64,000 nucleotides of DNA from Oscillospiraceae bacterium (GTDB taxonomy: Bacteria; Bacillota; Clostridia; Oscillospirales; Oscillospiraceae): NCBI GenBank assembly GCA_021201735.1, contig JAJQEJ010000064.1:1-64000 (forward strand), given 5' to 3'. Of the stretch, positions 14,086-29,137 are shown in pieces (the first letter of the stretch is position 1; each line of letters begins with the position of its first letter). The notes below the pieces were generated by a model. That model searched no databases. It saw only the letters and a list, made by a program, of their open reading frames with translations, and was not told where the DNA came from. Position numbers and translations under genes: made by a program.

Positions 14086-14166
14086 GAGCACAGGAATATA
14101 AATACAGCTTAATTGTTATTATTCGGTAGATTAATCAAGGAATCACCGGAAGGGGGCGGTGCCGTT

Positions 14167-16041
14167 ATGAAAAAAAGAATGCTCGCGATATTACTCGCGC
14201 TGGCGATTTGCGTTGGAATGATAACGGGTACGGTCTTTTCCGCGTCGGATGAAGCGCAGCAGGCGGCGGAGGAGCTGTATGATCTTGGCATATTCCAAGG
14301 TGCCGGAACAAAGACGGATGGAACGCCGGATTTCAGGCTGGATGAAAAGCTGACACGCGCCGAGGCGGTGACGCTATTGGTGCGCCTGCTTGGCAAGGAA
14401 AATGAGGCGGTATCCAAGAGCTGGGCTACGCCGTTTACCGATGTGGAGGATTGGGCGATGCCGTATGTTGGGTACGCATACGCGAATGGACTCACGAGCG
14501 GCGTCGCGGCGACGGAATTTGGAAGCTGGCGCTCGGTGAGTGCGACGCAGTATCTCACCTTCCTCCTGCGCGCGCTCGGCTATACGTCCGGTTCGGATTT
14601 TGCGTGGGACAGCGCATGGACGCTGACCGACCAGCTGGGGATCACCAAAGGGGAATATGTCGCTGCCGCTACCTTTACCCGCGGCGACGCGGCTATTGTA
14701 TCCTGCCGGGCGCTGGACACCTCCCTCAAAAATGAGACAAAAACCCTGCGGAAGGTGATCAGCGATACGCTGGACGATACGACGGCTGCGGTAAAACGCG
14801 TGATGCTTCTGGGCGGGACAAGTTATTACGACTACGCGGAGAGCTTCAAAAATGGCTATGCCTTTGCCATCCGTGACGGTGTGTGCGGATATGTCAGCGC
14901 CATCGGGGTGTTTACACCCTGCTATACGGTGGACTTTTACACCTCCGACTACAGCGGAGATCAGTACTATGCCCTTATCCAGCTGCTTGGCGCGTCGACA
15001 ACGCCGCAGTTTGCGGTGTCGGAAGACGGCATCTATCCATACTATGATAACGATGCCGGCGCATGGGGGTACAAAAATATTTATAACGGCGAGATCGTAC
15101 TTGAGCCGGTATATGCCGAGGCGTGTCCGTTTTCGGAGGGCCGGGCCATTGTCCGCTATACGCAGGTAAGCGCAGAGGACGCGCGCTACTGGGTCATCAA
15201 CACGAAAGGCGCGGATATGTTTGATACGGCGTATGTCTTTGAGCTCCACTATCAGGATGGGCTGCTGAACGCGACGGCGGAGAGCGGCGGCGTCTTGTAT
15301 AACTGCCTGTATGACACAGATGGAACGGTGATTGTATATTTGGCCGAAGCCACCGATATTGTGCGCAGTATCGACTTTCATGCCTCCGCCTCTTGCCGCA
15401 ACGGCTACGCGCTGCGCGACGAGAGTACCGACCCGAATCATATTGGCGTCTTCATCGACGGAATAGAGACCAGCCAGTTATTTTACTATATCAATACCGC
15501 CGGGGCAATTACGGCGGTTCTCCCGTCGGGTGCGGAGACCGGTCTGGGCTGGAACAGGGACTCCAACGCTGCCTTTTATAAGGCCAATGGGAAATATGGA
15601 CTGTTTAACGCCGACGGGAAGATTACCGAGGCGATCTATACCGCGGTGACGCCGCTGCAAAATGGTATTTCATTTGTCAGTGAGGACGGCGTGACCTATT
15701 ATCCAATCAAGGCAAACGGCAGCCGGATTGGAACGGAAGATTACAGCGGAGGCGGCGCATGTGGCGATAACAAGTTGATTCCCGCGGCCCAAGAGGGGGC
15801 ATATGGCTATATCAGTACCACCGGTGCAACGGTGATCCCGTTCCAGTATGCCGCCGCCGAACCCTTTTCGGAGGGCATCGGCTTCGTCAGGGAGACGGAG
15901 GACGGCATGAAAACACTCATCAACACAGATGGGGATGTGATCACGGGAAGTCTCACGGTGTTGGACAGCAGCACCGCGTCGGAAGGGTTTTATCTCATTT
16001 CCACGCCGCAGGGGTACTGCCATATTTACGCAGTCTATTAA
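14167..16041 (+). CDS. Exported surface protein with S-layer-homology and WG repeats
   Basis: About 624 residues. An N-terminal signal peptide (MKKRMLAILLALAICVGM..., cut near FSA-S) is followed by S-layer-homology-like segments (AEELYDLGIFQG, KLTRAEAVTLLVRLLG, WAMPYVGYAYANGLTSG) that would hold it on the cell wall. The rest (about 230-620) is a set of WG/KWG repeats, recognisable as NGKYGLFNADGKI, EGAYGYISTTGATVIPFQYA and PFSEGIGFVRE. These form beta-structures, usually for binding, with no known enzyme activity. AAGGGGG lies about 9 bases before the ATG. Function beyond surface display is unknown. Confidence 0.85.
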   Translation: MKKRMLAILLALAICVGMITGTVFSASDEAQQAAEELYDLGIFQGAGTKTDGTPDFRLDEKLTRAEAVTLLVRLLGKENEAVSKSWATPFTDVEDWAMPYVGYAYANGLTSGVAATEFGSWRSVSATQYLTFLLRALGYTSGSDFAWDSAWTLTDQLGITKGEYVAAATFTRGDAAIVSCRALDTSLKNETKTLRKVISDTLDDTTAAVKRVMLLGGTSYYDYAESFKNGYAFAIRDGVCGYVSAIGVFTPCYTVDFYTSDYSGDQYYALIQLLGASTTPQFAVSEDGIYPYYDNDAGAWGYKNIYNGEIVLEPVYAEACPFSEGRAIVRYTQVSAEDARYWVINTKGADMFDTAYVFELHYQDGLLNATAESGGVLYNCLYDTDGTVIVYLAEATDIVRSIDFHASASCRNGYALRDESTDPNHIGVFIDGIETSQLFYYINTAGAITAVLPSGAETGLGWNRDSNAAFYKANGKYGLFNADGKITEAIYTAVTPLQNGISFVSEDGVTYYPIKANGSRIGTEDYSGGGACGDNKLIPAAQEGAYGYISTTGATVIPFQYAAAEPFSEGIGFVRETEDGMKTLINTDGDVITGSLTVLDSSTASEGFYLISTPQGYCHIYAVY

Positions 16042-18480: not shown

Positions 18481-21400
18481 TTACAACGACTCGGCGGATT
18501 CTGTTTCCTCGGCTTCTTCCGGCTCCTTCGCCTGTGTGGCATCTGCGTTGGCGTCGGCGTCATTTTCCTGCACGTCGTCCTCCTGTGCGTCTTCCTCCTC
18601 TAGTACAGGCTCTTCCTGTTCGGAGTCTTCCTCCTCCAGTACAGGCTCTGCCTGCTCAGTGTCTTCCGCCGCCTGTCTGTCTTCGACGACAATGGAATCC
18701 TCCGTGCTTTCATCGCTCAGGTTTATGAGCAGGGAGGTGCTGCTGGTACTGCTCAGCGTAAAGTCGAACTCGTAATTCACGTAGCCCGGAACGACAATCT
18801 CAATGACGTAGACAGGGTCTGCGTTGTCCTCAGTTTCTTTGACGGGAGTAAAGCAAGAGGCACTCGTGTTGACTGAACCATCTGAATTGATGACAGTCAC
18901 CGGATTGCGCCCGGATAGGGCATAGCTCGTGCCGTCAACGTTAACACTGGTGATTGCGGCAACGTAGTCTGTTACAGCGGCATCGCCGGAATAGCCTCCA
19001 TCCGTGTTGGTGACCAGTTTCCCTTGGGTCGCATCAAACACCACCGGGAGATTGGAAGTGTACAGATTGAAGGTTGTGGAGAGATCCGTCCAGCCATTCT
19101 TGCTGTCGCCACCGTCTGAGAGGGTCAGCGTGTAGGTGCCGGTAGGAATCGTCGCAGTGCTGTCCCAAGAGATTGTGCCTGCAGCGGCATCGATGGTGAA
19201 CAGGGAGCTGTCACCCGGGCCGCTGATGGCGTAGACCTTCTCATAGTCGTCGAGACCAGTCGCTGTGATCGTGGTCGAGGTGCTCGAGCCTATGTCCGCA
19301 TCTACAACAGCGAATGCATAATTCGTGGGGATCTTTGCGAGATATTCTTCCCACGCCAGCGTGTAGTAGCCCTTATCGGTGATGAAGACCACCTTCTGCA
19401 TGGTTTCACCCTGCATGTTGACGTAGCTCGTATTATCCAGCAGGGAGCTGCTGTGGACGTATTCCTGTACGCCGGACGACCATGCGATCTCCAGACCGTA
19501 ACGGCTGCCCCACCAGATGTTTTCCATGTGGCGCATGGCGTAATATCCGCCGTCGGCATCGTTGTTCGTGTTTGTCGTCTGAACCATCATGCCGTAGATT
19601 TGGAAGAAAGCCCTGCTTTGATCTGTAAGCTCAATCCCGATTTCATCATCAGATGTGTTGGGGATACCGGCGTATCCACCCCCGCTCACGGGGAAGTTAT
19701 TGGTGTTGTGAGAAGTATCGCTAAAGTCGAGCTCATAGTCGCCATAAGTGCTCTCGTCACCTGTTTTGAGCACGAATTCAGCTGTATAGGTCTGCGCGTT
19801 ACCATCTTCATCGGTAGCATATCCAGTTGCGTCAGGATTAATTTCATACGTGGGCGCGTCAGCTCCGCCGGATTTTACTGCGGAGAAGGAAATCTCCCCG
19901 TTTGTAAAGCTGGCAACCTTATAGGCCGTCGGCTGATCGGCGGAAATGTCGGTCATGGCATAGGAGTACGTATCCTCCAGCGCATCGACATAGTTATCTC
20001 TGGGCGTGGCGCCACCCGCGTTGGGATTGTAAAGGTTCACTGTTTTCAGGCTCTCTCTCAGATCCTCCAGATCCGCAAGCATCTCCGCATATTCGTCAAA
20101 CGTTATGGCCACCGGGTAGGTAATACCCAAAATTGCGCCATAGTCCTCGTCCTGATCGGAAAGATAAGCACCGGTCACCATAGAACCGCTTTTCCATTTG
20201 CTGGTGCTCGCGGTGGTAACGGCGTCAACGCCCTTGCTGATGCCGTTGCTGCCCTCGGCGGCGTAGAAATCGGCATACGGGATGCTCATCGTTCCATAGA
20301 GGTAGCCGTCCGTTGCAATCGCCTGCGTGGTCGTCTCCGCGGCGTAATCTGACAAGATGACTTTCACGAAGTAGGAGCCGGAGTATGTCCCGAGGTTCAC
20401 GTAGGAGAGCCCCTCCGTGTCAATAACCGCTCTTGTCGCCACGCCGGTTGCGTTGTCGGTAATCTTGAGGATAGCCCCTTCCAAATCCTTGGAAGAGTTG
20501 ATGACAACGCCGCCGTCCATGACAGAGATGTCTATCGCCGTCTCCGTCAGCACAATTTCATAGTCGGTTTCCACCAGAATCTCTTCGATAGACCCGGTGG
20601 GCATAGAATAGCCGTTTGCAAGCAGCAGCTTATCGAGCGCGTTATAGGAGAGGGTAGCGCCGCTGTAGGTGTCGACCAGGGCAGTGCTGCTCGGTGTAAC
20701 CCTTCCGCAGAGGATGTCGGAGAGATACGTTGTTAGGTCGTCGACCAGATCCTCAACGTACTCGTGGTTCACAGTCTGCTTTGCGCCGCTGTCCATACCG
20801 CCATTGGCGGGCTCATAGTAGGAGTCGTGTTCGAAATCGAGCGCGACCACGACCTCGTTGCCCCCATAGGTGTAGGACCAGACGTAGATGTCAATGGTGT
20901 AGTCATAGAATATGCTGTCCGACTCCAGCTTTGCGCTCGCGTCCTTCGGCACGGAGAGCGAGAGGGTGGTCTTCGTGATACCGGTGGCGTTCAGATCAAC
21001 ACTCAACTTGTCGAGCGGATCAATCGCCTGCGGCGTCATCACGAGCAGATACGCGCCGGAGCTTTCGACGGAGGCCGCCGCATAATAGGTACCGTCCATA
21101 TAAAGCACCTGCGTAGCCAAAGCGCTCGCCGCTGTCCCGTCTATGTAGTAATAGGTAAAGTCCATATTACTGTCATACGTCGGAATCGGCACCAGAACCA
21201 GCCCGCTCGCGGTCTGTGCCACGTCGTAACACGCGAGGAGATGATCCGCTGCAGTGAGCGTATCGCCGTAGATTTCCGCGGCGTATCCGAGATAGCTCGT
21301 GAGCGACGTGGTGTCTGTAACCGCTGTCGCAGACGTGATACCGGCCTCAGCGTAGACGTCGCCCAGCTGGGACAGGGTCACCGCGCTTTTCTCCGCGATG

Positions 21401-22671
21401 ATCGCGCTGTCAAGGGCGTTTTCGATTGATGACAGCATCGCCAAAGACGTGTATGTAGCACCGGATACCGTGTCCGCCGTTGTCGCGTTGTTCTCCGCGG
21501 CGTCGCTGATTAAATACTTCACATTGTTGTAATAGTCGATGGTCTCTTTGTGGTCCGTCACTTTGATATCGTAAATTTCTCCGCCGGACACGATGACAGT
21601 CACATACATCATGCCGCCATAACCGGGCGCGCTGCCGGAATAGGTTCCATCGGCAAGGTAGTAGTCATCGTAGGCGAACTTCTGATAGGTCGCGCGGCCA
21701 TAAGCGCCGCTGCCACCGCCGCTGCTGCCGGCGCTGCCGGTTTTACCGGTGGATGCGTTCCCCAGCGCTTGCCCGAGCGCATCGTTCACGGCGTCCAGAA
21801 TCGCATTGCAGCTGACGGTCGCGCCGGACACTGTATCAACGCCATCGGTTGACTGCGTGGACAGAATGGTGTCAATGATTTTTTTCGCCCGGTTCCAATA
21901 CGCGGTGGTCTCATTGTGGCTCACAACCTCAATGGCCGTGATTTTCCCGTCCAAAATGGTGACGGAAAGGGTTACCGTACCGCCGTATCCTTTGCCGGTA
22001 CCGATATAGGTGCCGTCCTGATAGGTGCCGGTGCTGACCACATCCTCCGACGCAGTCAGATCCAGATGCTCCGACGTCGCCAGGCGCTCAATGACAACCA
22101 CACTCTGTGCGCGGGTGGCATTTTCCAGCGGGGTCAAGCGGTTGTTATCCCCCTGTAAAAGCCCGGCGGCCACAACAGCGCCGGCGGGGCCCGCCGCCCA
22201 ATCGGCAAAGTCGGACGCGTCGCTATAGTCCGCGAGGGCGTCTGCGTTGTCCTCCAGCGCGCATACGCGCGCCATGATCACCGCCATCTCCTGCCGGGTG
22301 ATCGGACTATTCGGTGACATCGTCGTGCTGCTTGTGCCGGTCAGGTAACCGGCGGCCACGCCGATGGCCACATCGTCATGAAACCAGTCGTCGGCGGAGA
22401 CATCGGAAAACGCGCTGATATCCGCTTGCTCGCTGTAGCCAATGCGGCGGTTCATCATGGTCATAAACTCTGCACGGGTGACCGCGCTGTCCGGCAGAAT
22501 ATCCCCGTTCTGGTTGCCCTTTAAGTATCCGGCGTCCACCCATTCGGTTAGGCTGTCCTCCGCCCAGTGCCCGGATAGCTCTGATTCGTTTGCGAGCGTG
22601 ACCGCGCTCATGCTGAGTACCATAGAGGCGGATAACCCCATTGCGATGATACGACTTGCTAATGTTTTCAT
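18481..22671 (-). CDS. SLH-anchored multi-flavin (FMN-binding) surface protein
   Basis: A 1396-residue exported protein. A signal peptide (residues 1-28) is followed by three S-layer-homology domains (about 33-205; GHWAEDSLTEWVDAGYLKG, VTRAEFMTMMNRR, ITRQEMAVIMARV). Two FMN_bind domains follow, each with a DGTYxGxxxGYGG start and a DTVSGAT motif in which Thr is the ApbE attachment residue: T285 and T406. A third motif, DTYSGAT with T673, stands on a less complete domain. The rest is beta-rich and unassigned. The C-terminus is very acidic, with an EPVLEEED unit repeated. It likely carries covalently bound FMN across the cell wall and passes electrons outward. AGGAAGG precedes the ATG. Last gene of a three-gene leftward operon behind apbE. 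Confidence 0.88.
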   Translation of the reverse strand: MKTLASRIIAMGLSASMVLSMSAVTLANESELSGHWAEDSLTEWVDAGYLKGNQNGDILPDSAVTRAEFMTMMNRRIGYSEQADISAFSDVSADDWFHDDVAIGVAAGYLTGTSSTTMSPNSPITRQEMAVIMARVCALEDNADALADYSDASDFADWAAGPAGAVVAAGLLQGDNNRLTPLENATRAQSVVVIERLATSEHLDLTASEDVVSTGTYQDGTYIGTGKGYGGTVTLSVTILDGKITAIEVVSHNETTAYWNRAKKIIDTILSTQSTDGVDTVSGATVSCNAILDAVNDALGQALGNASTGKTGSAGSSGGGSGAYGRATYQKFAYDDYYLADGTYSGSAPGYGGMMYVTVIVSGGEIYDIKVTDHKETIDYYNNVKYLISDAAENNATTADTVSGATYTSLAMLSSIENALDSAIIAEKSAVTLSQLGDVYAEAGITSATAVTDTTSLTSYLGYAAEIYGDTLTAADHLLACYDVAQTASGLVLVPIPTYDSNMDFTYYYIDGTAASALATQVLYMDGTYYAAASVESSGAYLLVMTPQAIDPLDKLSVDLNATGITKTTLSLSVPKDASAKLESDSIFYDYTIDIYVWSYTYGGNEVVVALDFEHDSYYEPANGGMDSGAKQTVNHEYVEDLVDDLTTYLSDILCGRVTPSSTALVDTYSGATLSYNALDKLLLANGYSMPTGSIEEILVETDYEIVLTETAIDISVMDGGVVINSSKDLEGAILKITDNATGVATRAVIDTEGLSYVNLGTYSGSYFVKVILSDYAAETTTQAIATDGYLYGTMSIPYADFYAAEGSNGISKGVDAVTTASTSKWKSGSMVTGAYLSDQDEDYGAILGITYPVAITFDEYAEMLADLEDLRESLKTVNLYNPNAGGATPRDNYVDALEDTYSYAMTDISADQPTAYKVASFTNGEISFSAVKSGGADAPTYEINPDATGYATDEDGNAQTYTAEFVLKTGDESTYGDYELDFSDTSHNTNNFPVSGGGYAGIPNTSDDEIGIELTDQSRAFFQIYGMMVQTTNTNNDADGGYYAMRHMENIWWGSRYGLEIAWSSGVQEYVHSSSLLDNTSYVNMQGETMQKVVFITDKGYYTLAWEEYLAKIPTNYAFAVVDADIGSSTSTTITATGLDDYEKVYAISGPGDSSLFTIDAAAGTISWDSTATIPTGTYTLTLSDGGDSKNGWTDLSTTFNLYTSNLPVVFDATQGKLVTNTDGGYSGDAAVTDYVAAITSVNVDGTSYALSGRNPVTVINSDGSVNTSASCFTPVKETEDNADPVYVIEIVVPGYVNYEFDFTLSSTSSTSLLINLSDESTEDSIVVEDRQAAEDTEQAEPVLEEEDSEQEEPVLEEEDAQEDDVQENDADANADATQAKEPEEAEETESAESL

Positions 22672-22691
22672 TTTACACCTTCCTACTTTCG

Positions 22692-23777
22692 TTAATATGA
22701 TTGCATGGCGATGGTCTGAACCTGCTCAAAGCCCTCCGACGGCTCATATAGGGCACAAAGCCCTTCGGTGATATATACCGCGCCGTCGTCGGTGACAAAT
22801 ACCGCTTCAAACCCGCCTTGTGCACGCCAGTATTCGGTTGCCTCATCTAGCCCCATCACAAAAAGTGAGGTGGAGAGCGCATCCCCCAAAAATCCGTCGT
22901 CGGTTACAATCGTGACCGAACTCAGGCCAGAATCGGCAGGGAGCCCCGTATCGGGGTCAAGAATGTGGTGGTAGCGTACCGTTTTGCCGTCTTCCTCCAC
23001 GTCAAAAAACCGCTGATAGCCGCCGGATGTGATCACCGCGCAATCCGTCACAGAGAGCACGCCGACATATCCGCTGTCGGTAAACGGGTCCTGCACCGCG
23101 ACCTTCCACGGCGAGCCGTCCGGCTTTGCCCCGACGGCCTGAATGTTCCCGCCGAGGGTGAGCAGCGCCGAGTCAATTCCATACCCGCGCAGGAGATCCG
23201 CCGCCTGTTGGGACGCATAGCCTTTTGCCACAGAGCCAAGAGAAAGTCCCATGTCCGGCTGTTCCAATGTCATGGTGCTGGCGGACGCGTCCACCGTGAC
23301 TGCCTCATAATCCACCGACGCCAGCAAATCCAGCCGTTCTTCCGCAGAAAGGACGGTATAATTGCCTGTCGGAAAGCCGTATGCTGCGACAAGCGGGTAA
23401 ACCGTCAGATCCAGTGCGCCGTCTGTCGTTGCGCAGATATCCAGCGCCCTTGCCGTCAGGCTTGCCGTCTCCTCTGAAACCGTAACCGGCGCGCCTCCGG
23501 CTGCATTGACTGCGCTGATATCGCTCTCCTCCAATGTGTGGGAGAATATCTGCTCCAGACGGTAAATTTCAGCTTCCGCCGCCTGTAGGCCGTCCGCCGC
23601 ATGTGCTCCGTAGGCTTTCATCTGCATGAGGGTATCCATGGCGAAAAAGGCGGTCTCGTGCGGCTCGCTGGCTTCGGGCGGCGACAGCGTGGGCGTATTC
23701 GCCTGTGCTGTACACCCACATAGCACGAGCAGTGCGAGCAGTGCGGGTGCGCACTTTAGGGCTTGTTTCTTTTTCAT
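22692..23777 (-). CDS. apbE: FAD:protein FMN transferase (lipoprotein)
   Basis: Attaches FMN from FAD to Thr in (D/S)xxSGAT motifs of exported proteins. The N-terminus is a lipoprotein signal (KKKQALKCAPALLALLVLCGC, Cys at the cut), placing the enzyme on the outer face of the membrane. Family motifs are present: FFAMDTLMQMKAYG, GSVAKGYASQ, LLTLGGNIQAVG, HHILDPDTGLPA and the metal-binding DALSTSLFVMG near the C-terminus. The likely substrates are encoded on both sides of it. The ATG at 23777 gives the best signal peptide; a GTG at 23783 overlaps the upstream stop codon and is an alternative start. Confidence 0.94.
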   Translation of the reverse strand: MKKKQALKCAPALLALLVLCGCTAQANTPTLSPPEASEPHETAFFAMDTLMQMKAYGAHAADGLQAAEAEIYRLEQIFSHTLEESDISAVNAAGGAPVTVSEETASLTARALDICATTDGALDLTVYPLVAAYGFPTGNYTVLSAEERLDLLASVDYEAVTVDASASTMTLEQPDMGLSLGSVAKGYASQQAADLLRGYGIDSALLTLGGNIQAVGAKPDGSPWKVAVQDPFTDSGYVGVLSVTDCAVITSGGYQRFFDVEEDGKTVRYHHILDPDTGLPADSGLSSVTIVTDDGFLGDALSTSLFVMGLDEATEYWRAQGGFEAVFVTDDGAVYITEGLCALYEPSEGFEQVQTIAMQSY

Positions 23778-23782
23778 CGGCA

Positions 23783-24535
23783 CTAATTCTTCGCCGACTT
23801 CAGGGCGTTTGCGACCGCTTCCATAATACCCTCGGAGCTAAAGGTCGCGCCGGAAACGGCGCTCACATTGGCGGATTGCGCGGATATCATCTTGCTGATC
23901 ACGCCCTTGGCGTCGTCTATGTACGGTGAGTCGTCGGAGTGCTTGGTCACCTTGATGGACGTGATTTTGTCGCTTGCGATGGTGACGGAAACTGTAATTT
24001 TGCCGTTGTAGCCGTCTCCCGTCCCGGTATACGTCCCGTCTTTATAAACGGTCTTCACCACAGGTGTTGGGGTCGGCGTTGCCGCCGCGGTCGGCGTCGG
24101 GGTCGCGGTTGCGGCTGGAGATGGCGACGGCGTCGCTGTCGCGGTTTGCGTACCCGCCGCAGTGGACACGGTTTGTTCCTGTTGCGCGGTGACCGTTGTA
24201 CTCGCGCTGCCTGAGCCGGATGATCCCGCGGCCGTCACAGTAGATGAGGCTTCGGATGTCTTCGCGCTGGTCACAGCGCTGCTTGGCGCAGCGGATGCGG
24301 TGTTCCCTGCGGTTGTGGTCTCCTGGCCTGTAGTGTCTGATTCCGTGCCGTCCGGCTCGCCCGTCTCTTCGACCGGTGCCGTTTCCGTCGGCGGGGCAGA
24401 GTCGAGCGGCATTTCCGAAACCGGCGGCGAGCTTTCCGGCGGGGTACTGCTCTCCTCATCACCTCCTCCACAAGCTGTCAAAAGCAGCATGGCTCCGGCG
24501 AGTACGCCGGGCAGGATTGTGCGCATTGGTTTCAC
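23783..24535 (-). CDS. FMN-binding lipoprotein with long low-complexity linker
   Basis: About 250 residues. A lipoprotein signal (GVLAGAMLLLTAC) is followed by roughly 135 residues of Ser/Thr/Pro/Ala/Glu-rich linker, then one FMN_bind domain (YKDGTYTGTGDGYNG to the end). The flavinylation motif is SAVSGAT with T231 as the attachment residue; the usual leading Asp is Ser here. The architecture resembles the Listeria electron-transfer lipoprotein PplA, with a tether long enough to span the cell wall. The GTG at 24535 has AAGGAGG 8 bases upstream. First gene of the leftward operon; its stop codon abuts apbE. Confidence 0.88.
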   Translation of the reverse strand: MKPMRTILPGVLAGAMLLLTACGGGDEESSTPPESSPPVSEMPLDSAPPTETAPVEETGEPDGTESDTTGQETTTAGNTASAAPSSAVTSAKTSEASSTVTAAGSSGSGSASTTVTAQQEQTVSTAAGTQTATATPSPSPAATATPTPTAAATPTPTPVVKTVYKDGTYTGTGDGYNGKITVSVTIASDKITSIKVTKHSDDSPYIDDAKGVISKMISAQSANVSAVSGATFSSEGIMEAVANALKSAKN

Positions 24536-24581
24536 TCTGCATTCCTCCTTGATCAATAATAAAGATGTTTGCCGTTGCCAA

Positions 24582-24617
24582 TGCACCATAAGTTAGTCAC
24601 GGCTAACTTATGGTGCA
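24582..24617. promoter_or_regulatory. Palindromic operator O1 / hairpin in the leader of the flavin operon
   Basis: A perfect palindrome with 15-bp arms (24582-24596 and 24603-24617) centred on GTTAGT-CACG-GCTAAC (24592-24607). It shares its core with two other sites in this intergenic region. It lies in the 5' leader of the leftward operon, 47 bases upstream of the GTG. Confidence 0.75.
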
Positions 24618-24660
24618 AAAATAACTCACTCCACCTCGATTGGGGTCCTGTCGCAATGAG

Positions 24661-24676
24661 GTTAGCGAGAGCTAAC
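24661..24676. promoter_or_regulatory. Palindromic operator O2
   Basis: GTTAGC-GAGA-GCTAAC, a perfect 6-4-6 palindrome. It lies just downstream of the expected transcription start of the leftward promoter (24689-24717), a typical repressor position. Confidence 0.7.
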
Positions 24677-24688
24677 TGACACGGGAAC

Positions 24689-24717
24689 AGTTTATCATTA
24701 TTTTATCTCATTGGCAA
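24689..24717 (-). promoter_or_regulatory. Leftward promoter of the FMN lipoprotein-apbE-SLH operon
   Basis: Read on the minus strand: TTGCCA (24717-24712), 17 bases, TAAACT (24694-24689). The start of transcription would fall near 24682, placing operator O2 at about +6 to +21. Confidence 0.6.
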
Positions 24718-24816
24718 GATGTTTTTGTAAAATTTTTATATTTTCATGTAAGCCTTGCGCTGCAATGGAATAGGGAGATAGAAAAACAAAATTCATATTT
24801 TCTGGCCCGATAGGGC

Positions 24817-24846
24817 TTGACAAATGGGCCTCTTTTTTGATACTTT
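24817..24846 (+). promoter_or_regulatory. Rightward promoter of the NusG-II/Gx/heme operon
   Basis: TTGACA (24817-24822), 18 bases, then TG-A-TACTTT (extended -10, hexamer 24841-24846). Operator O3 starts 12 bases further on, at about +6, mirroring the arrangement on the leftward side. Confidence 0.6.
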
Positions 24847-24858
24847 AAACCGGACGAG

Positions 24859-24874
24859 GTTAGCTATCGCTAAC
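24859..24874. promoter_or_regulatory. Palindromic operator O3
   Basis: GTTAGC-TATC-GCTAAC, the same 6-4-6 palindrome as O2 with a different spacer. It lies between the rightward promoter and the AAGGAGG ribosome binding site of the NusG-II gene. Confidence 0.7.
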
Positions 24875-24891
24875 TTCGAAGGAGGCCTTTC

Positions 24892-25272
24892 ATGATGAAA
24901 CTGCACACGCGGATCCTGATTCTCGTGGTACTGGTTGCCGCCGTCTGTGCGGGCGCTGCATTTGCCTTGCAGCATTCCTCCGGCGGCACGATTGCCTGTG
25001 TCACGCGGAATGGCGAGGTGATAGAGCGGATTGACCTGTCGGCGGTGTCGGAGCCGTATTCCTTTGTCATCTCCTGCGCGGAAGGGGACAACACGGTGGA
25101 GGTAAAGCCCGGGGCGATACGTATCGCACACGCCGATTGCCCCGATCAGATCTGTGTGTCCAGCGGCTGGAGCGGCGCGGGTTCTCTGCCCATTGTCTGC
25201 CTGCCGCACAAGCTCGTGATATCCTTTGAGGCGGATACACCGGCGGAGATTGACGGGGTGAGTGGACGATGA
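24892..25272 (+). CDS. NusG domain II-containing membrane-anchored protein
   Basis: A 126-residue protein with one N-terminal membrane anchor (about residues 7-26) and an exported NusG_II domain. The hallmark Cys pattern is present: C83-PDQI-C88 in HADCPDQICVSSGW and C103 in IVCLPHKLVI. Proteins of this type are half of the EetA/EetB-type pair of Gram-positive extracellular electron transfer systems and of many flavinylation-linked loci. The next gene, the Gx-type partner, overlaps it by ATGA. AAGGAGG lies 6 bases before the ATG. Confidence 0.92.
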   Translation: MMKLHTRILILVVLVAAVCAGAAFALQHSSGGTIACVTRNGEVIERIDLSAVSEPYSFVISCAEGDNTVEVKPGAIRIAHADCPDQICVSSGWSGAGSLPIVCLPHKLVISFEADTPAEIDGVSGR

Positions 25273-25850
25273 AATTTGCCGGTCAGACAAAGCGCCTTGC
25301 GGCGCTCGCCATGCTCAGCGGCATTGCCCTCATCATTTTTACAATTGAAGCGCAAATTCCAACCCCGCTGCCCGGCGTGAAGCTGGGGCTTGCCAATATT
25401 ATTACCCTGTTTACCCTCTACCGCTGCGGAAGGCGGGAGGCGCTGGCCGTTTTGATCGTGCGGGTGCTGCTCGGCGCGCTTGTGACAGGGCGGCTGATGA
25501 CGCTGGGCTACAGTCTGGCCGGTGGCCTGCTCTGCCTCGCCGTGTGCTCCCTGCTGCGCCCCGTGCTCAAGCGAAACGTCTGGGCCTGCAGCATGGTGGG
25601 CGCGGTGTTCCACAACATCGGGCAGCTTCTGTGCGCCTGCGTGATCACCAAGAGCATGGCGGTGTTTGCCTATTTCCCCATCCTGCTCGTTGTGGGGCTT
25701 GCAACGGGCCTGTTTACCGGCCTTTGTACCTACGTGCTCCTGCCCCGGCTCGATCACATCTTTTCCGCCATCCCCTTTTCCGAGCCGAATCCATTTGTGA
25801 GCAGGCGCGTTATGGAAAAAAGCAAGCAGACGTCCGATTCAGAAAGGTAG
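25269..25850 (+). CDS. Gx transporter-family membrane protein (EetA/B-type, HepS-like)
   Basis: A 193-residue membrane protein with five or six hydrophobic segments and the family start LSGIALIIFTIEAQIP...LPGVKLGLANIIT, often labelled heptaprenyl diphosphate synthase component I or Gx transporter. It is not an enzyme by sequence. With the preceding NusG-II protein it is the conserved membrane module of flavin-based extracellular electron transfer. Start and the previous stop overlap (25269-25272). A cytosolic-facing tail is charged. Confidence 0.9.
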   Translation: MKFAGQTKRLAALAMLSGIALIIFTIEAQIPTPLPGVKLGLANIITLFTLYRCGRREALAVLIVRVLLGALVTGRLMTLGYSLAGGLLCLAVCSLLRPVLKRNVWACSMVGAVFHNIGQLLCACVITKSMAVFAYFPILLVVGLATGLFTGLCTYVLLPRLDHIFSAIPFSEPNPFVSRRVMEKSKQTSDSER

Positions 25851-25858
25851 GTTGAACC

Positions 25859-26575
25859 ATGTTATTTATCATCGCGCTCTGTATCGTCGCCGTTTTCCTG
25901 CCCCTCCTGCGGGGGAGCATCAAAAAGCATGCCCACATCTACTATGCCGTTACGGTTGCCCTTTGTGCATTCACGATTGTGGCGACCTATACCTCCGCGT
26001 TTACCGCCGCGCCCACATGGGTGCGGACGTATGTCTTTGGCCTTCTGGAGCGCGGCGCGCTGAGCACCGCCATTTTTACCGCCGTGATGTGCCTTGGGGC
26101 GTTGCCGAAGACGTCCTCGCTGCTGCGCAAATATATGCCCATCCGCGCGGAGCTCTCCATCATCGCGAGCATTCTCGTCTTTGGACACAATATTGCGTAT
26201 GGCAGGACGTATTTCCGGTTTCTGTTTACAAATCCCGGGCGGTTATCTGTGCCCGTGCTGATTGCCGCCATCTTCACGATCATCATGCTCGCGATGCTGA
26301 TTCCCCTGTTCATTACCTCCTTTCCCACAGTACGCCGCAGATTCAAGGCGAAATCATGGAAAAGGTTGCAGCGCATGGCCTATCCCTTCTATATGATGAT
26401 CTATGGCCACGTATTGTTACTCACCATCCCCAATATCATCACAAGTGGTGCGGTCAGCTCCATTATCAATCTGGTCGTCTATTCCGTTGTGTTCGTCGGC
26501 TACGCCGGTGCGCGCATCCGCAAAGCGGTCAAGCAACACCAGCCGCAGACGGTGGAGGGCGCGAAGCTTGCATAA
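25859..26575 (+). CDS. Ferric reductase-like transmembrane heme protein
   Basis: A 238-residue protein with six hydrophobic segments, resembling the ferric reductase-like/MsrQ heme b membrane domain. Candidate heme ligands are H110 (LVFGHN, after the family-like RAELSIIASI) and H184 (MIYGHVLLL). The expected LHR before the last His reads LQR (Q171) in KRLQRMAYPFY. In flavinylation-linked loci such proteins move electrons across the membrane to exported flavoproteins. It is 8 bases downstream of the Gx gene and probably the last gene of the rightward operon. The heme assignment is inferred. Confidence 0.8.
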   Translation: MLFIIALCIVAVFLPLLRGSIKKHAHIYYAVTVALCAFTIVATYTSAFTAAPTWVRTYVFGLLERGALSTAIFTAVMCLGALPKTSSLLRKYMPIRAELSIIASILVFGHNIAYGRTYFRFLFTNPGRLSVPVLIAAIFTIIMLAMLIPLFITSFPTVRRRFKAKSWKRLQRMAYPFYMMIYGHVLLLTIPNIITSGAVSSIINLVVYSVVFVGYAGARIRKAVKQHQPQTVEGAKLA

Positions 26576-26706: not shown

Positions 26707-27654
26707 TTACTTATATTTATAAATTCCGCCGCCAATAAATTCCCGTAACATGGAGTCCCCCGGGACGAGGGCCTCGTCGATGGGGGGGAACTGTGCAAAA
26801 GCGTCCACGAGCTGATGGAGCTCGGCATAGCGCGGGTTATCGGGCGTGAGTTGCTCCACCGCCTTACGCAAAGTCTCCGCGTAGTTTGCAAACAGGGAGA
26901 CCTCGTAGGCGAGAGCTGAATCAATGGTGATGTTCGCCCGATCCCGGTAGGGGGAGATATACCGCTTTTCCCCCCGGCGAACATTGTACCACATGTGGAA
27001 GGTTTTGGAGGGGTCAGTACCGCGAAAATTGACGTCCCGCACGGCGCGGCGGGTAATGCGCATCCACGTGCCCTTAAAGAGGCAGGTGCCCCCACTGTAA
27101 ATATCGGAGTGGGCAGAGATATAAAGCGTCATCGCCGCGTGGTTGCGCCCGGCGATATCATCGTTGAGCGCGTGAATGCCCTCATAGATAGCGACTTCAT
27201 TTTTGCCGAGCCGCAGCTGGCGGCTTTTCGCGGGGTTTCGCTGCTGGGAGGCAAAGTCAAAACGGGGGATGGTGACCTCCTCTCCGGCGGAGAGCTTGTG
27301 AAAGGTCTCGTTGAGCAGCTCCATATCGAGCAGCAGGGGGGACTCATAGTCAATCATACCCTCCGGCGTGCGTGGGGCTTGCGCTTCATCCAGGGACAAG
27401 AAATAGTTGTCGAGGGAGACGGTGTGCGCGATAATGCCACGCGCATGCAGCGCCTGCTCTATTTTCAGAGCCGAGGTGGTCTTCCCCGAGCCGGACGGAC
27501 CGGCCAGGAGCACAATGGGGCTGAGGGGGAGATTGGCGACAATCGCATCGACCGCATGCGTGACCTGCGCCTGATAGGCGCTTTCGCACTGCGCGATCAT
27601 GGCGGGCGCATCCTCCTGCAACCGGCGGTTAATTTCCTGAATCTGATAGGCCAT
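26707..27654 (-). CDS. Uridine kinase-like nucleoside kinase
   Basis: About 315 residues, a P-loop kinase of the phosphoribulokinase/uridine kinase type. Walker A is AGPSGSGKTT, followed by SLDNYFLSLDEA (the nucleoside-site DNYF) and YEGIHALN. Clostridial proteins of this type often carry an N-terminal TGS-like part fused to the kinase; that part is absent here. The ATG at 27654 is preferred, giving a 26-base overlap with the end of hemZ; the reading frame extends further upstream but inside hemZ. Substrate is inferred from the family. Confidence 0.85.
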   Translation of the reverse strand: MAYQIQEINRRLQEDAPAMIAQCESAYQAQVTHAVDAIVANLPLSPIVLLAGPSGSGKTTSALKIEQALHARGIIAHTVSLDNYFLSLDEAQAPRTPEGMIDYESPLLLDMELLNETFHKLSAGEEVTIPRFDFASQQRNPAKSRQLRLGKNEVAIYEGIHALNDDIAGRNHAAMTLYISAHSDIYSGGTCLFKGTWMRITRRAVRDVNFRGTDPSKTFHMWYNVRRGEKRYISPYRDRANITIDSALAYEVSLFANYAETLRKAVEQLTPDNPRYAELHQLVDAFAQFPPIDEALVPGDSMLREFIGGGIYKYK

Positions 27655-29137
27655 AAAGTGATGGTTCACCCTTCCCGGCGTAGAACGCTGCGATACGCGC
27701 CCACTTGCCGTTAAAATTTGGGGAGGTGCCGATGTATTCATACGGGTATTTTGGGTTTATAACGCGAAAAATATGCCCATTGTCAACCAATTTTGTCACG
27801 CCGCCGCCGCCGAGGGCTAGGACGGTGTGCAGCTCCTCCATCATGCAGAGGTTATAGAGGCTCTGGAAGCCGTCCTTTGTCCAGCCGACATTTTCGAAGG
27901 AGCCGGACATATATTTCTGGCGGTAGAGATAGTAAGGGGAATAGGCAGCGGCGGAGAGACACGCCCAGGCACTGTCGAGCATGTGTGCGACGTCCGCACC
28001 GGCGAGCAGCTGCACCTGCGTGCGGAGCAAATCCGCCCCTTTTTTCAGCGCCAGCGTGTGCACCGTAATATTTTCCGGCGCGAGCGCCAAAATCTGCTCC
28101 ATTGTATGCGCGAACCCCGCAACAGTGTCGGTGGGCAGGCCCGCAATGACGTCCATATTGACGCAGGGGATGCCGGATTCCCGCGCGCGTGCAAACGCCC
28201 GGCGGACGTCCTCGCTCCGGTGGGCCCGGCCCATGGCGGCGAGCACCGTGTCGGACATGGACTGCGGGTTGACCGACACCCGCCCCACCCCGTGGCTGTG
28301 CAGGACGCGGAGCTTTTCGGCGGTGATGGTGTCCGGCCTACCCGCCTCAACGGTGTATTCCGTGCAGCGGGAGAGGTCGATTTTTTCCGCGATACAGCCA
28401 AGCAGCGCGTCAAGCTGCGTGGCGGAGAGGGTCGTCGGCGTGCCGCCGCCGATGTAGACAGTGCGCACGGTGTGCCCCAGCGTCCGCAGCAGGTTCCCCG
28501 CTTGGGCGATCTCCGTATGCAGCGCCTCCAGAAATGGCGTGACCAGCTGCAAACTGCGCTGCACGTCGGCGGAGACGAAGGAGCAGTAGGTGCAGCGTGT
28601 GGGACAAAACGGGATGCCGATATAGAGGGAGATGTCGCGCGCGGAAAGCTGTGCTTGCGCGCGCAGACTCTCCCCCGCGCACGCAATGGCAAGCGCCCGG
28701 CGCGGTGGCGATACGCGGTAGGCGTCGCGTAAAAGGGCGTCCGCCTGCCGTAGTGTGGCACCGCACTGCATGGCCTTGGTGGGGACTTTCACGGGGCGCA
28801 CCCCCGTCATCGCGCCCCAGGGCGGCTCTTTGCCTATGGCGGCGACGCCTGCGCGGTAAAAGGCCATTTTCACGATCCGCCGCCGCAGCTGCTCGGCCTG
28901 CTCCGGGTCGTCGGGCAGCGCATGGCGGCTGACGCGGCACTGCCCGCGTGTGCGCTTCCCGCCGCGGGTGAGCAGGGCGGTCGCGGTGAGGTACTGCGTC
29001 CCTTCCCGGAGACTGAGGCGCAGGGTGTCCTGCGCGTTATCCGGCTGTCCATAGACCGGCTTTTCGCCGGGAAAGAGGGTAAAGAGCATCTGCTCGGCTG
29101 CGTATTGATAGTCGTGCCCGTCGAAGATCAGGTGCAT
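27629..29137 (-). CDS. hemZ: Oxygen-independent coproporphyrinogen III oxidase-like radical SAM protein
   Basis: A 502-residue radical SAM protein. The iron-sulfur motif CxxxCxxC is CPTRCTYCSF (about residues 180-190), followed by the SAM-binding YIGGGTPTTL. The upstream GAMTGVRPVKVPTKAM is typical of HemZ and absent from HemN. HemZ converts coproporphyrinogen III to protoporphyrinogen in heme synthesis, or acts as a related HemW-like heme chaperone. This fits with the heme protein nearby. Start codon is 1 base from the upstream MBL stop codon, so the genes are coupled. Confidence 0.92.
   Translation of the reverse strand: MHLIFDGHDYQYAAEQMLFTLFPGEKPVYGQPDNAQDTLRLSLREGTQYLTATALLTRGGKRTRGQCRVSRHALPDDPEQAEQLRRRIVKMAFYRAGVAAIGKEPPWGAMTGVRPVKVPTKAMQCGATLRQADALLRDAYRVSPPRRALAIACAGESLRAQAQLSARDISLYIGIPFCPTRCTYCSFVSADVQRSLQLVTPFLEALHTEIAQAGNLLRTLGHTVRTVYIGGGTPTTLSATQLDALLGCIAEKIDLSRCTEYTVEAGRPDTITAEKLRVLHSHGVGRVSVNPQSMSDTVLAAMGRAHRSEDVRRAFARARESGIPCVNMDVIAGLPTDTVAGFAHTMEQILALAPENITVHTLALKKGADLLRTQVQLLAGADVAHMLDSAWACLSAAAYSPYYLYRQKYMSGSFENVGWTKDGFQSLYNLCMMEELHTVLALGGGGVTKLVDNGHIFRVINPKYPYEYIGTSPNFNGKWARIAAFYAGKGEPSLYGLSDSGN

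Follow-up and report, generated by a model that had tools for sequence, protein, structure and literature searches.

Organization of the locus

The genes at positions 18,481-26,575 of a 64,000-nt stretch of DNA (hereafter the window; Oscillospiraceae bacterium GCA_021201735.1, contig JAJQEJ010000064.1) raise the question of which kind of flavin-based electron transfer they encode and what stands at its outer end. An earlier note on this DNA had described six genes in two divergent operons; the six open reading frames were found where it had placed them, and their coordinates and Pfam families agree with that layout. The leftward operon comprises an FMN_bind lipoprotein, ApbE and a 1396-aa exported protein, the rightward operon a NusG_II protein, a Hpre_diP_synt_I (Gx/EetB) protein and a Ferric_reduct membrane protein, and the two face away from a gap of 302 bp (24590-24891). 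The answer that we favour, and hold to be fairly probable, is an MsrQ-type flavinylated trans-envelope relay which ends in a wall-anchored Tp47-type module and responds to iron. The genes are as follows:

18481..22671, minus strand: 1396-aa exported surface protein with signal peptide, three SLH domains, two FMN_bind domains and a third motif, a Tp47-type module and an acidic tail
22692..23783, minus strand: ApbE FAD:protein FMN transferase lipoprotein (Pfam ApbE E 2.4e-82; lipobox LCGC)
23783..24589, minus strand: FMN_bind lipoprotein with a long Ser/Thr/Pro-rich linker (Pfam FMN_bind E 1e-16; lipobox LTAC)
24892..25272, plus strand: NusG_II protein, EetA-like (Pfam E 8.4e-30)
25269..25850, plus strand: Gx/EetB-like ECF S-component, predicted FAD exporter subunit (Pfam PF07456 E 5.6e-40; function via PMC9973259)
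25859..26575, plus strand: MsrQ-like one-heme membrane cytochrome, H110 and H184 (Pfam Ferric_reduct E 4.1e-8)

The Pfam matches thus agree with the identities proposed earlier for the ferric-reductase-like heme protein, ApbE, the NusG_II/Gx pair and the FMN lipoprotein. The real start of the lipoprotein is probably near 24535, and the NusG_II protein contains C83, C88 and C103. An Rfam scan of the window gave no match to a flavin or other riboswitch. Near the locus, at window positions 14113-16041, lies an SLH protein with WG beta-repeats, which is kept in a sister genome (L016).

The neighbourhood comparison, set beforehand as a possible refutation, found both arms united in other genera. 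The whole set forms one operon in L122, L080 and L083, therefore the two arms belong together, as the earlier note had assumed; the palindromes they share agree with this. The order is SLH-FMN-Tp47 / ApbE / MsrQ::FMN / NusG / Gx in L122 and MsrQ::FMN / ApbE / NusG / Gx / SLH-FMN in L080. Since the gene set is kept in other genera, the arrangement is not due to chance.

Comparison with Listeria-type electron transfer

The locus resembles the flavin-based extracellular electron transfer (EET) of Listeria (ndh2, dmk, eetA/B, fmnA/B, pplA) in its ApbE, its FMN lipoprotein and its EetA- and EetB-like genes, but it has no NDH-2, no quinone synthesis and no FmnA at the locus, and a heme cytochrome would act as the conduit. 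Under the definition in PMC8238504, the Listeria type requires an NADH dehydrogenase (NDH-2, K03885) bearing a transmembrane helix within the flavinylation cluster. No NDH-2 was found among the six genes and their neighbours by open reading frames and Pfam; on visual inspection of sequences and neighbours, the Pyr_redox_2 proteins of the genome (2.35 Mb, 97% complete) resemble other enzymes, and none of them NDH-2. The UbiA family (PF01040) has no match in this genome with a model that detects all 14 controls, and therefore there is no MenA route to menaquinone; taken together with the lack of an NDH-2-like protein, this means that the electron donor is not a self-made quinone. The statement that Ndh2 and demethylmenaquinone genes are missing here is accordingly correct, and membership of the Listeria type is ruled out.

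The EetA/EetB pair had also been counted among the electron-transfer steps, and this part has to be given up. In Listeria, EetB (PF07456) is an ECF S-subunit that binds FAD and exports it for use by ApbE, and deletion of eetA has no EET phenotype (PMC9973259), so that the published genetics rule out an electron-transfer pair. An EcfA, A', T module is found elsewhere in the genome, and with the PF07456 S-component and EcfAA'T both available we predict an ECF flavin exporter of the EetB type.

It could be argued that ApbE, NusG_II and Gx chiefly serve Rnf and that the surface proteins are incidental neighbours: the genome has an Rnf complex with RnfG, and in Clostridia eetB is often located together with Rnf (PMC9973259). 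However, a second NusG_II-Gx pair (G000:C60:1357-2372, L169, locus coordinates; its Gx 80% identical to that of the window) and a second ApbE (G000:C15, L166:86-1186; 41% identical) lie elsewhere in the genome and possibly serve Rnf, and in relatives ApbE, NusG_II and Gx share an operon with MsrQ::FMN and the surface protein. We consider such a service to Rnf by the genes of the locus very improbable.

The MsrQ-like cytochrome and the flavin step

The cytochrome matches Ferric_reduct with 33.8 bits (cut-off 28), and ApbE and FMN_bind genes adjoin it. Homologues were collected by a scan of 84,980 species genomes, in which the best 80 matches represent 80 loci (81 with the window); related loci among the 81 share kinship, so the counts given here are not independent. 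In 58 of the 81, the cytochrome continues into a linker and an FMN_bind domain within one polypeptide. In the window it is split from the FMN_bind lipoprotein, which corresponds to the C-terminus of the MsrQ::FMN fusions; this split is probably secondary in the lineage, because the branch of the window sits within the mainly fused part of the (unrooted) tree. The fusions, together with a genome that lacks the UbiA family, uphold the proposal that the cytochrome replaces Ndh2 as electron entry, and an electron step from the heme protein to FMN is strongly supported as a prediction from sequence. Some MsrQ-like homologues stand without any flavin gene nearby (e.g. L095, L098, L113).

H110 is conserved in 80, and both H184 and Q171 in all, of these 81 homologues (best 80 and window). 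H184 falls within a peptide pattern by which homologues were recruited, so that its conservation is partly selected, and H110, Q171 and the fusions lie outside such patterns. Q171 presumably occupies the position of the other heme-ligand histidine of MsrQ (the second of TM5). With only H110 and H184 conserved, the two heme-binding sites of MsrQ are not found here, and the cytochrome is predicted to have one heme site. Ferrochelatase was not found in the genome, therefore heme would come from outside or by another route; a gene close to the cytochrome (window 27629-29137) is one that we take to be hemZ-like (coproporphyrinogen dehydrogenase).

PMC11334425 models an MsrQ::FMN_bind protein and describes for MsrQ-like proteins a single two-histidine heme site, so the single site of our cytochrome is compatible with the operational MsrQ-like class. 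PF01794 next to ApbE and FMN_bind is what PMC8238504 describes as the 'MsrQ-like' flavinylation system, and the locus shares with such systems (Meheust et al. 2021, PMC8238504; Huang et al. 2024, PMC11334425), which include the MsrQ::FMN_bind fusions, a PF01794 cytochrome adjoining ApbE and FMN_bind. It differs from them in its split cytochrome and tethered lipoprotein, its clostridial origin and its SLH-FMN-Tp47 surface end. Since MsrQ-like systems, SLH multi-flavinylated clusters and MsrQ::FMN proteins are already described, the locus is of a known kind and is most aptly placed among the MsrQ-like flavinylation systems, as one that has a multi-flavinylated surface protein. The new part is the Tp47-type module in the C-terminal half of the 1396-aa protein.

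The cytochrome is also seen in contigs that bear the labels Alistipes, Chloroflexi/Flexilinea and Fretibacterium (L078, L077, L094, L141), by gene transfer or by binning error; a Tp47-like gene stands alongside it in L077, L078 and L094.

Anchors and flavin domains of the surface protein

The 1396-aa protein contains the following elements:

22072..22584, minus strand: SLH wall-anchoring domains, residues ~30-200 (Pfam SLH E 7.6e-22; S-layer Sap SLH structures)
21766..22047, minus strand: FMN_bind domain 1, residues 209-302, with DTVSGAT at 279-285 (Pfam; PDB 8p2b)
21403..21675, minus strand: FMN_bind domain 2, residues 333-423, with DTVSGAT at 400-406 (Pfam)
20653..20673, minus strand: DTYSGAT, residues 667-673, third flavinylation motif; the domain around it is degenerate or divergent (exact motif; weak HMM match)
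20206..20226, minus strand: DAVTTAS, residues 816-822, flavinylation-like with the G replaced (motif comparison with homologous modules)
18742..20346, minus strand: Tp47-type module, residues ~776-1310; its C-terminal end weakly matches Shr-like_HID (module: HMM E 3.6e-64; 1o75 fold match)

Anchoring of this protein in the wall, as proposed earlier, is supported by three Pfam SLH matches. The three flavinylation motifs ascribed to it are all exact, but only two of them (D279-T285 and D400-T406) lie within clear FMN_bind domains, and the third (D667-T673) shows weak domain similarity. Exported and carrying two Pfam FMN_bind stretches besides the third motif, the protein is multi-flavinylated by its domain content, and covalent FMN is predicted on the exported proteins of the locus. 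The best PDB relative of domain 1 is 8p2b (E 1e-9), which is domain 1 of CbFMN4, a flavinylated domain of a multi-FMN protein (PMC10339131).

In its several FMN_bind domains and its SLH anchoring, and in the closeness of its first domain to CbFMN4-D1, the protein resembles CbFMN4 and other multi-flavinylated wall proteins (PMC10339131; PMC8238504 Fig. 6). A large wall-anchored multi-flavin protein had been called little described; this does not hold, as SLH-type multi-flavinylated wall clusters are already reported in PMC8238504. Nor is the protein a mere carrier, as the earlier note had it: unlike in the known proteins, more than half of it is non-flavin, and the C-terminal ~530 residues are the Tp47-type module that the note had missed. 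A 1994-aa SLH protein in another locus of this type (L122:1744-7728) has three FMN_bind stretches and two Tp47-type modules.

The Tp47-type module

These ~530 residues match a separate secreted protein which, in many loci, is encoded just upstream of the cytochrome gene. In an AlphaFold model of the window module (pLDDT 66) the top Foldseek match is Tp47 (1o75, E 1.4e-7), and VIA-align scores it at Z 13.7 over 300 residues, with the next structure at 7.1; for a homologue from L084 (pLDDT 94) the values are Z 16.8 over 269 residues and 7.7. Plain Foldseek with the L084 model did not have 1o75 among its first 50 matches. On these models, both the window module and the L084 protein have the Tp47 fold. 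Equivalent genes in L091, L102 and L109 (E down to 1.7e-81), and also in L172, encode members of Pfam PBP-Tp47_a/_c, and the 1396-aa protein is matched by an HMM that was built up from the L102 gene. The window protein itself has no match to PBP-Tp47_a or PBP-Tp47_c at E<1; because it lies below Pfam detection and the link runs via L102-type homologues, we call the module Tp47-type and not a member of the Tp47 family. A PDB sequence search with the Tp47-type alignment did not find 1o75 and gave weak Shr/HID-type Ig matches only, and NCBIfam reported wall-anchor signals only.

Tp47 (TP0574 of Treponema pallidum, 1o75) is reported to be a penicillin-binding lipoprotein and is a well-known antigen of the syphilis bacterium. 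We know of no link between Tp47 and flavins, and a literature search for one found nothing relevant. The likeness consists in the fold over ~270-300 residues, in the Pfam membership of neighbouring homologues and in a D-x-V-[ST]-x-A-[ST] motif that those homologues share; in contrast to Tp47, the module here lies below Pfam detection, shares 12-18% identity with it and is fused to SLH and FMN domains. The passages of PMC8238504 and PMC11334425 on MsrQ-like systems that we consulted do not speak of a Tp47-type partner.

Tp47-like genes are present in 52 of the 81 cytochrome loci (best 80 and window). The separate upstream gene shares the strand of the cytochrome gene, at a median distance of 39 bp (40 of 44 between -50 and 200 bp). 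The module is among the commonest neighbours of the cytochrome, mostly as a separate protein, and homologues carry NPXTG or LysM anchors in place of the SLH domains of the window. Fusions of SLH, FMN and Tp47 parts are also seen in L075, L122, L176, L177, L178 and L180. In the converse test we took the two genomes in which PBP-Tp47_c occurs (a rare family, present in just these two among 391 genomes of the class) and 11 loci found within the order by the window module alone, with ~8 kb around each. FMN_bind or ApbE lies near 12 of these 13 independently found Tp47-like genes (the exception is L182), mostly both and often with NusG_II-Gx. Several of the loci have no MsrQ-like gene, and the three that were checked (L172, L178, L179) carry a NapH-like 4Fe-4S membrane protein (PF12801); thus the module goes with flavinylation and not with one conduit. 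As Tp47-type modules have no known cofactor, a redox role of the module rests on this association.

Pairing with two conduits, MsrQ-like and NapH-like, is also what a terminal enzyme would show, and the system could be an extracytosolic reductase for a specific organic or oxidised-protein substrate (like fumarate, urocanate and methionine-sulfoxide reductases) with the Tp47-type module as its substrate-binding or catalytic unit. MsrQ of E. coli does feed a periplasmic methionine sulfoxide reductase (PMC8238504). We regard such a reductase as quite unlikely: neither Pfam nor NCBIfam found a known catalytic domain in the module, and the regulatory context described below points to iron.

A flavinylation-like motif

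The pattern D-x-[VIL]-[ST]-(not G)-A-[ST], to which DAVTTAS of the window belongs, is found in 62 of 65 Tp47-like proteins. It occurs in ~1% of background genes and in 41 of 43 modules, the modules being homologues. In an alignment of 38 sequences the D and A are invariant, position 4 is always S or T, and the last residue is T in 37 and S in one, the window. The conserved form D-x-V-S-S-A-T is one position off the ApbE motif D-x-x-[ST]-G-A-[ST]: G is replaced by S, R or T and the other positions are kept. With A in place of this G, flavinylation falls to roughly half (PMC12052999). It could be that Tp47-type modules are a second kind of ApbE substrate with FMN on the last residue of the motif; if a module is flavinylated, the accepted recognition motif of ApbE is too narrow. 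A wider proposal, which we put forward tentatively and as less probable than the relay itself, is that Tp47-family proteins, including the clostridial relatives of Tp47, are the extracytosolic ends of flavinylated electron chains, maybe a second kind of ApbE substrate (with the final residue of D-x-V-[ST]-[SR]-A-[ST] as the FMN site), and belong to an iron-responsive GTTAG-N6-CTAAC regulon.

Shared palindromes and the probable acceptor

The gap between the operons holds three palindromes:

24592..24607, unstranded: palindrome GTTAGTCACGGCTAAC, intergenic gap
24661..24676, unstranded: palindrome GTTAGCGAGAGCTAAC, intergenic gap
24859..24874, unstranded: palindrome GTTAGCTATCGCTAAC, intergenic gap; putative operator conserved in relatives

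These three copies of GTTAG-N6-CTAAC compare with 0.19 expected in the whole window (one mismatch allowed). Related loci contain 97 sites at the N6 spacing and 2 in total at the remaining spacings between 0 and 15. The 80 best-match cytochrome loci have 82 sites, of which 45 lie <=250 bp upstream of Tp47-like or cytochrome genes, in 2.6% of the DNA. Both operons are thus probably under shared control through these predicted operators.

DtxR-type repressor genes above the Pfam cut-off are present in six loci (L082, L093, L111, L120, L178, L180), that is, they flank a minority, and no DtxR-type gene was identified in the window; feoAB is close in few. In a Butyrivibrio locus (L150, 4570-8965) GTTAG-N6-CTAAC palindromes stand between a feoA-feoB-fur operon and the divergently oriented Tp47-like and MsrQ::FMN genes. 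This context suggests that the palindromes exert metal-responsive control, and a DtxR-type metal-responsive repressor is likely to bind them. A literature search for the GTTAG-N6-CTAAC box found nothing relevant.

The earlier note had read the locus as extracellular electron transfer. A relay across the envelope to the wall is supported; respiration would be its less likely purpose, and iron-responsive reduction fits the regulatory context better. On a dissimilatory reading, the cell would respire or balance its redox state with minerals, shuttles or partners as electron sinks; the SLH protein would be the terminal carrier, and the Tp47-type part would serve just as a spacer or adhesin. The wall anchoring, the several FMN domains and the long-linker lipoprotein suit this, and multi-flavinylated cell-wall clusters are a precedent (PMC8238504). 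However, the module ranks with the most frequent neighbours of the cytochrome and mostly stands as a protein of its own, so that it is not a spacer; operators adjoin DtxR-type genes and feoAB in several loci, which suits assimilation; and the genome has no quinone synthesis. Dissimilatory transfer is in our judgement unlikely.

We return to the iron-responsive relay, which is well supported by gene fusions and neighbourhoods, all of it read from sequence. Gx and the general ECF module of the cell would export FAD, the source of the FMN that ApbE would couple to the exported proteins. A donor in the cytosol or the membrane, other than self-made menaquinone, would supply the electrons; these would cross the membrane over the single heme of the MsrQ-like protein and pass to FMN on the tethered lipoprotein and on to the FMN domains of the SLH protein. 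From there they would go to or via the Tp47-type module, which would contact or reduce the acceptor. Given that a metal-responsive repressor of the DtxR type likely binds the operators, the likeliest acceptor would be ferric iron or an iron compound, reduced for uptake or redox balance, and the likeliest role iron-responsive surface reduction. We infer the acceptor and the regulator, as we do flavinylation and the direction of electron flow.

Multi-flavinylated wall proteins and MsrQ-like conduits were already known, and the component at the outer end was generally unclear before. Here one family of Tp47-related modules recurs at that end with two conduits (MsrQ-like and NapH-like) and several anchors (SLH, NPXTG, LysM). 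A possible role in surface electron transfer makes the function of the enigmatic Tp47 family testable in commensals. GTTAG-N6-CTAAC is a candidate regulon motif for finding further members; in another locus the palindrome precedes a flavodoxin gene. It also precedes enolase-like genes (L149:10187, L153:11249, L120:10527).
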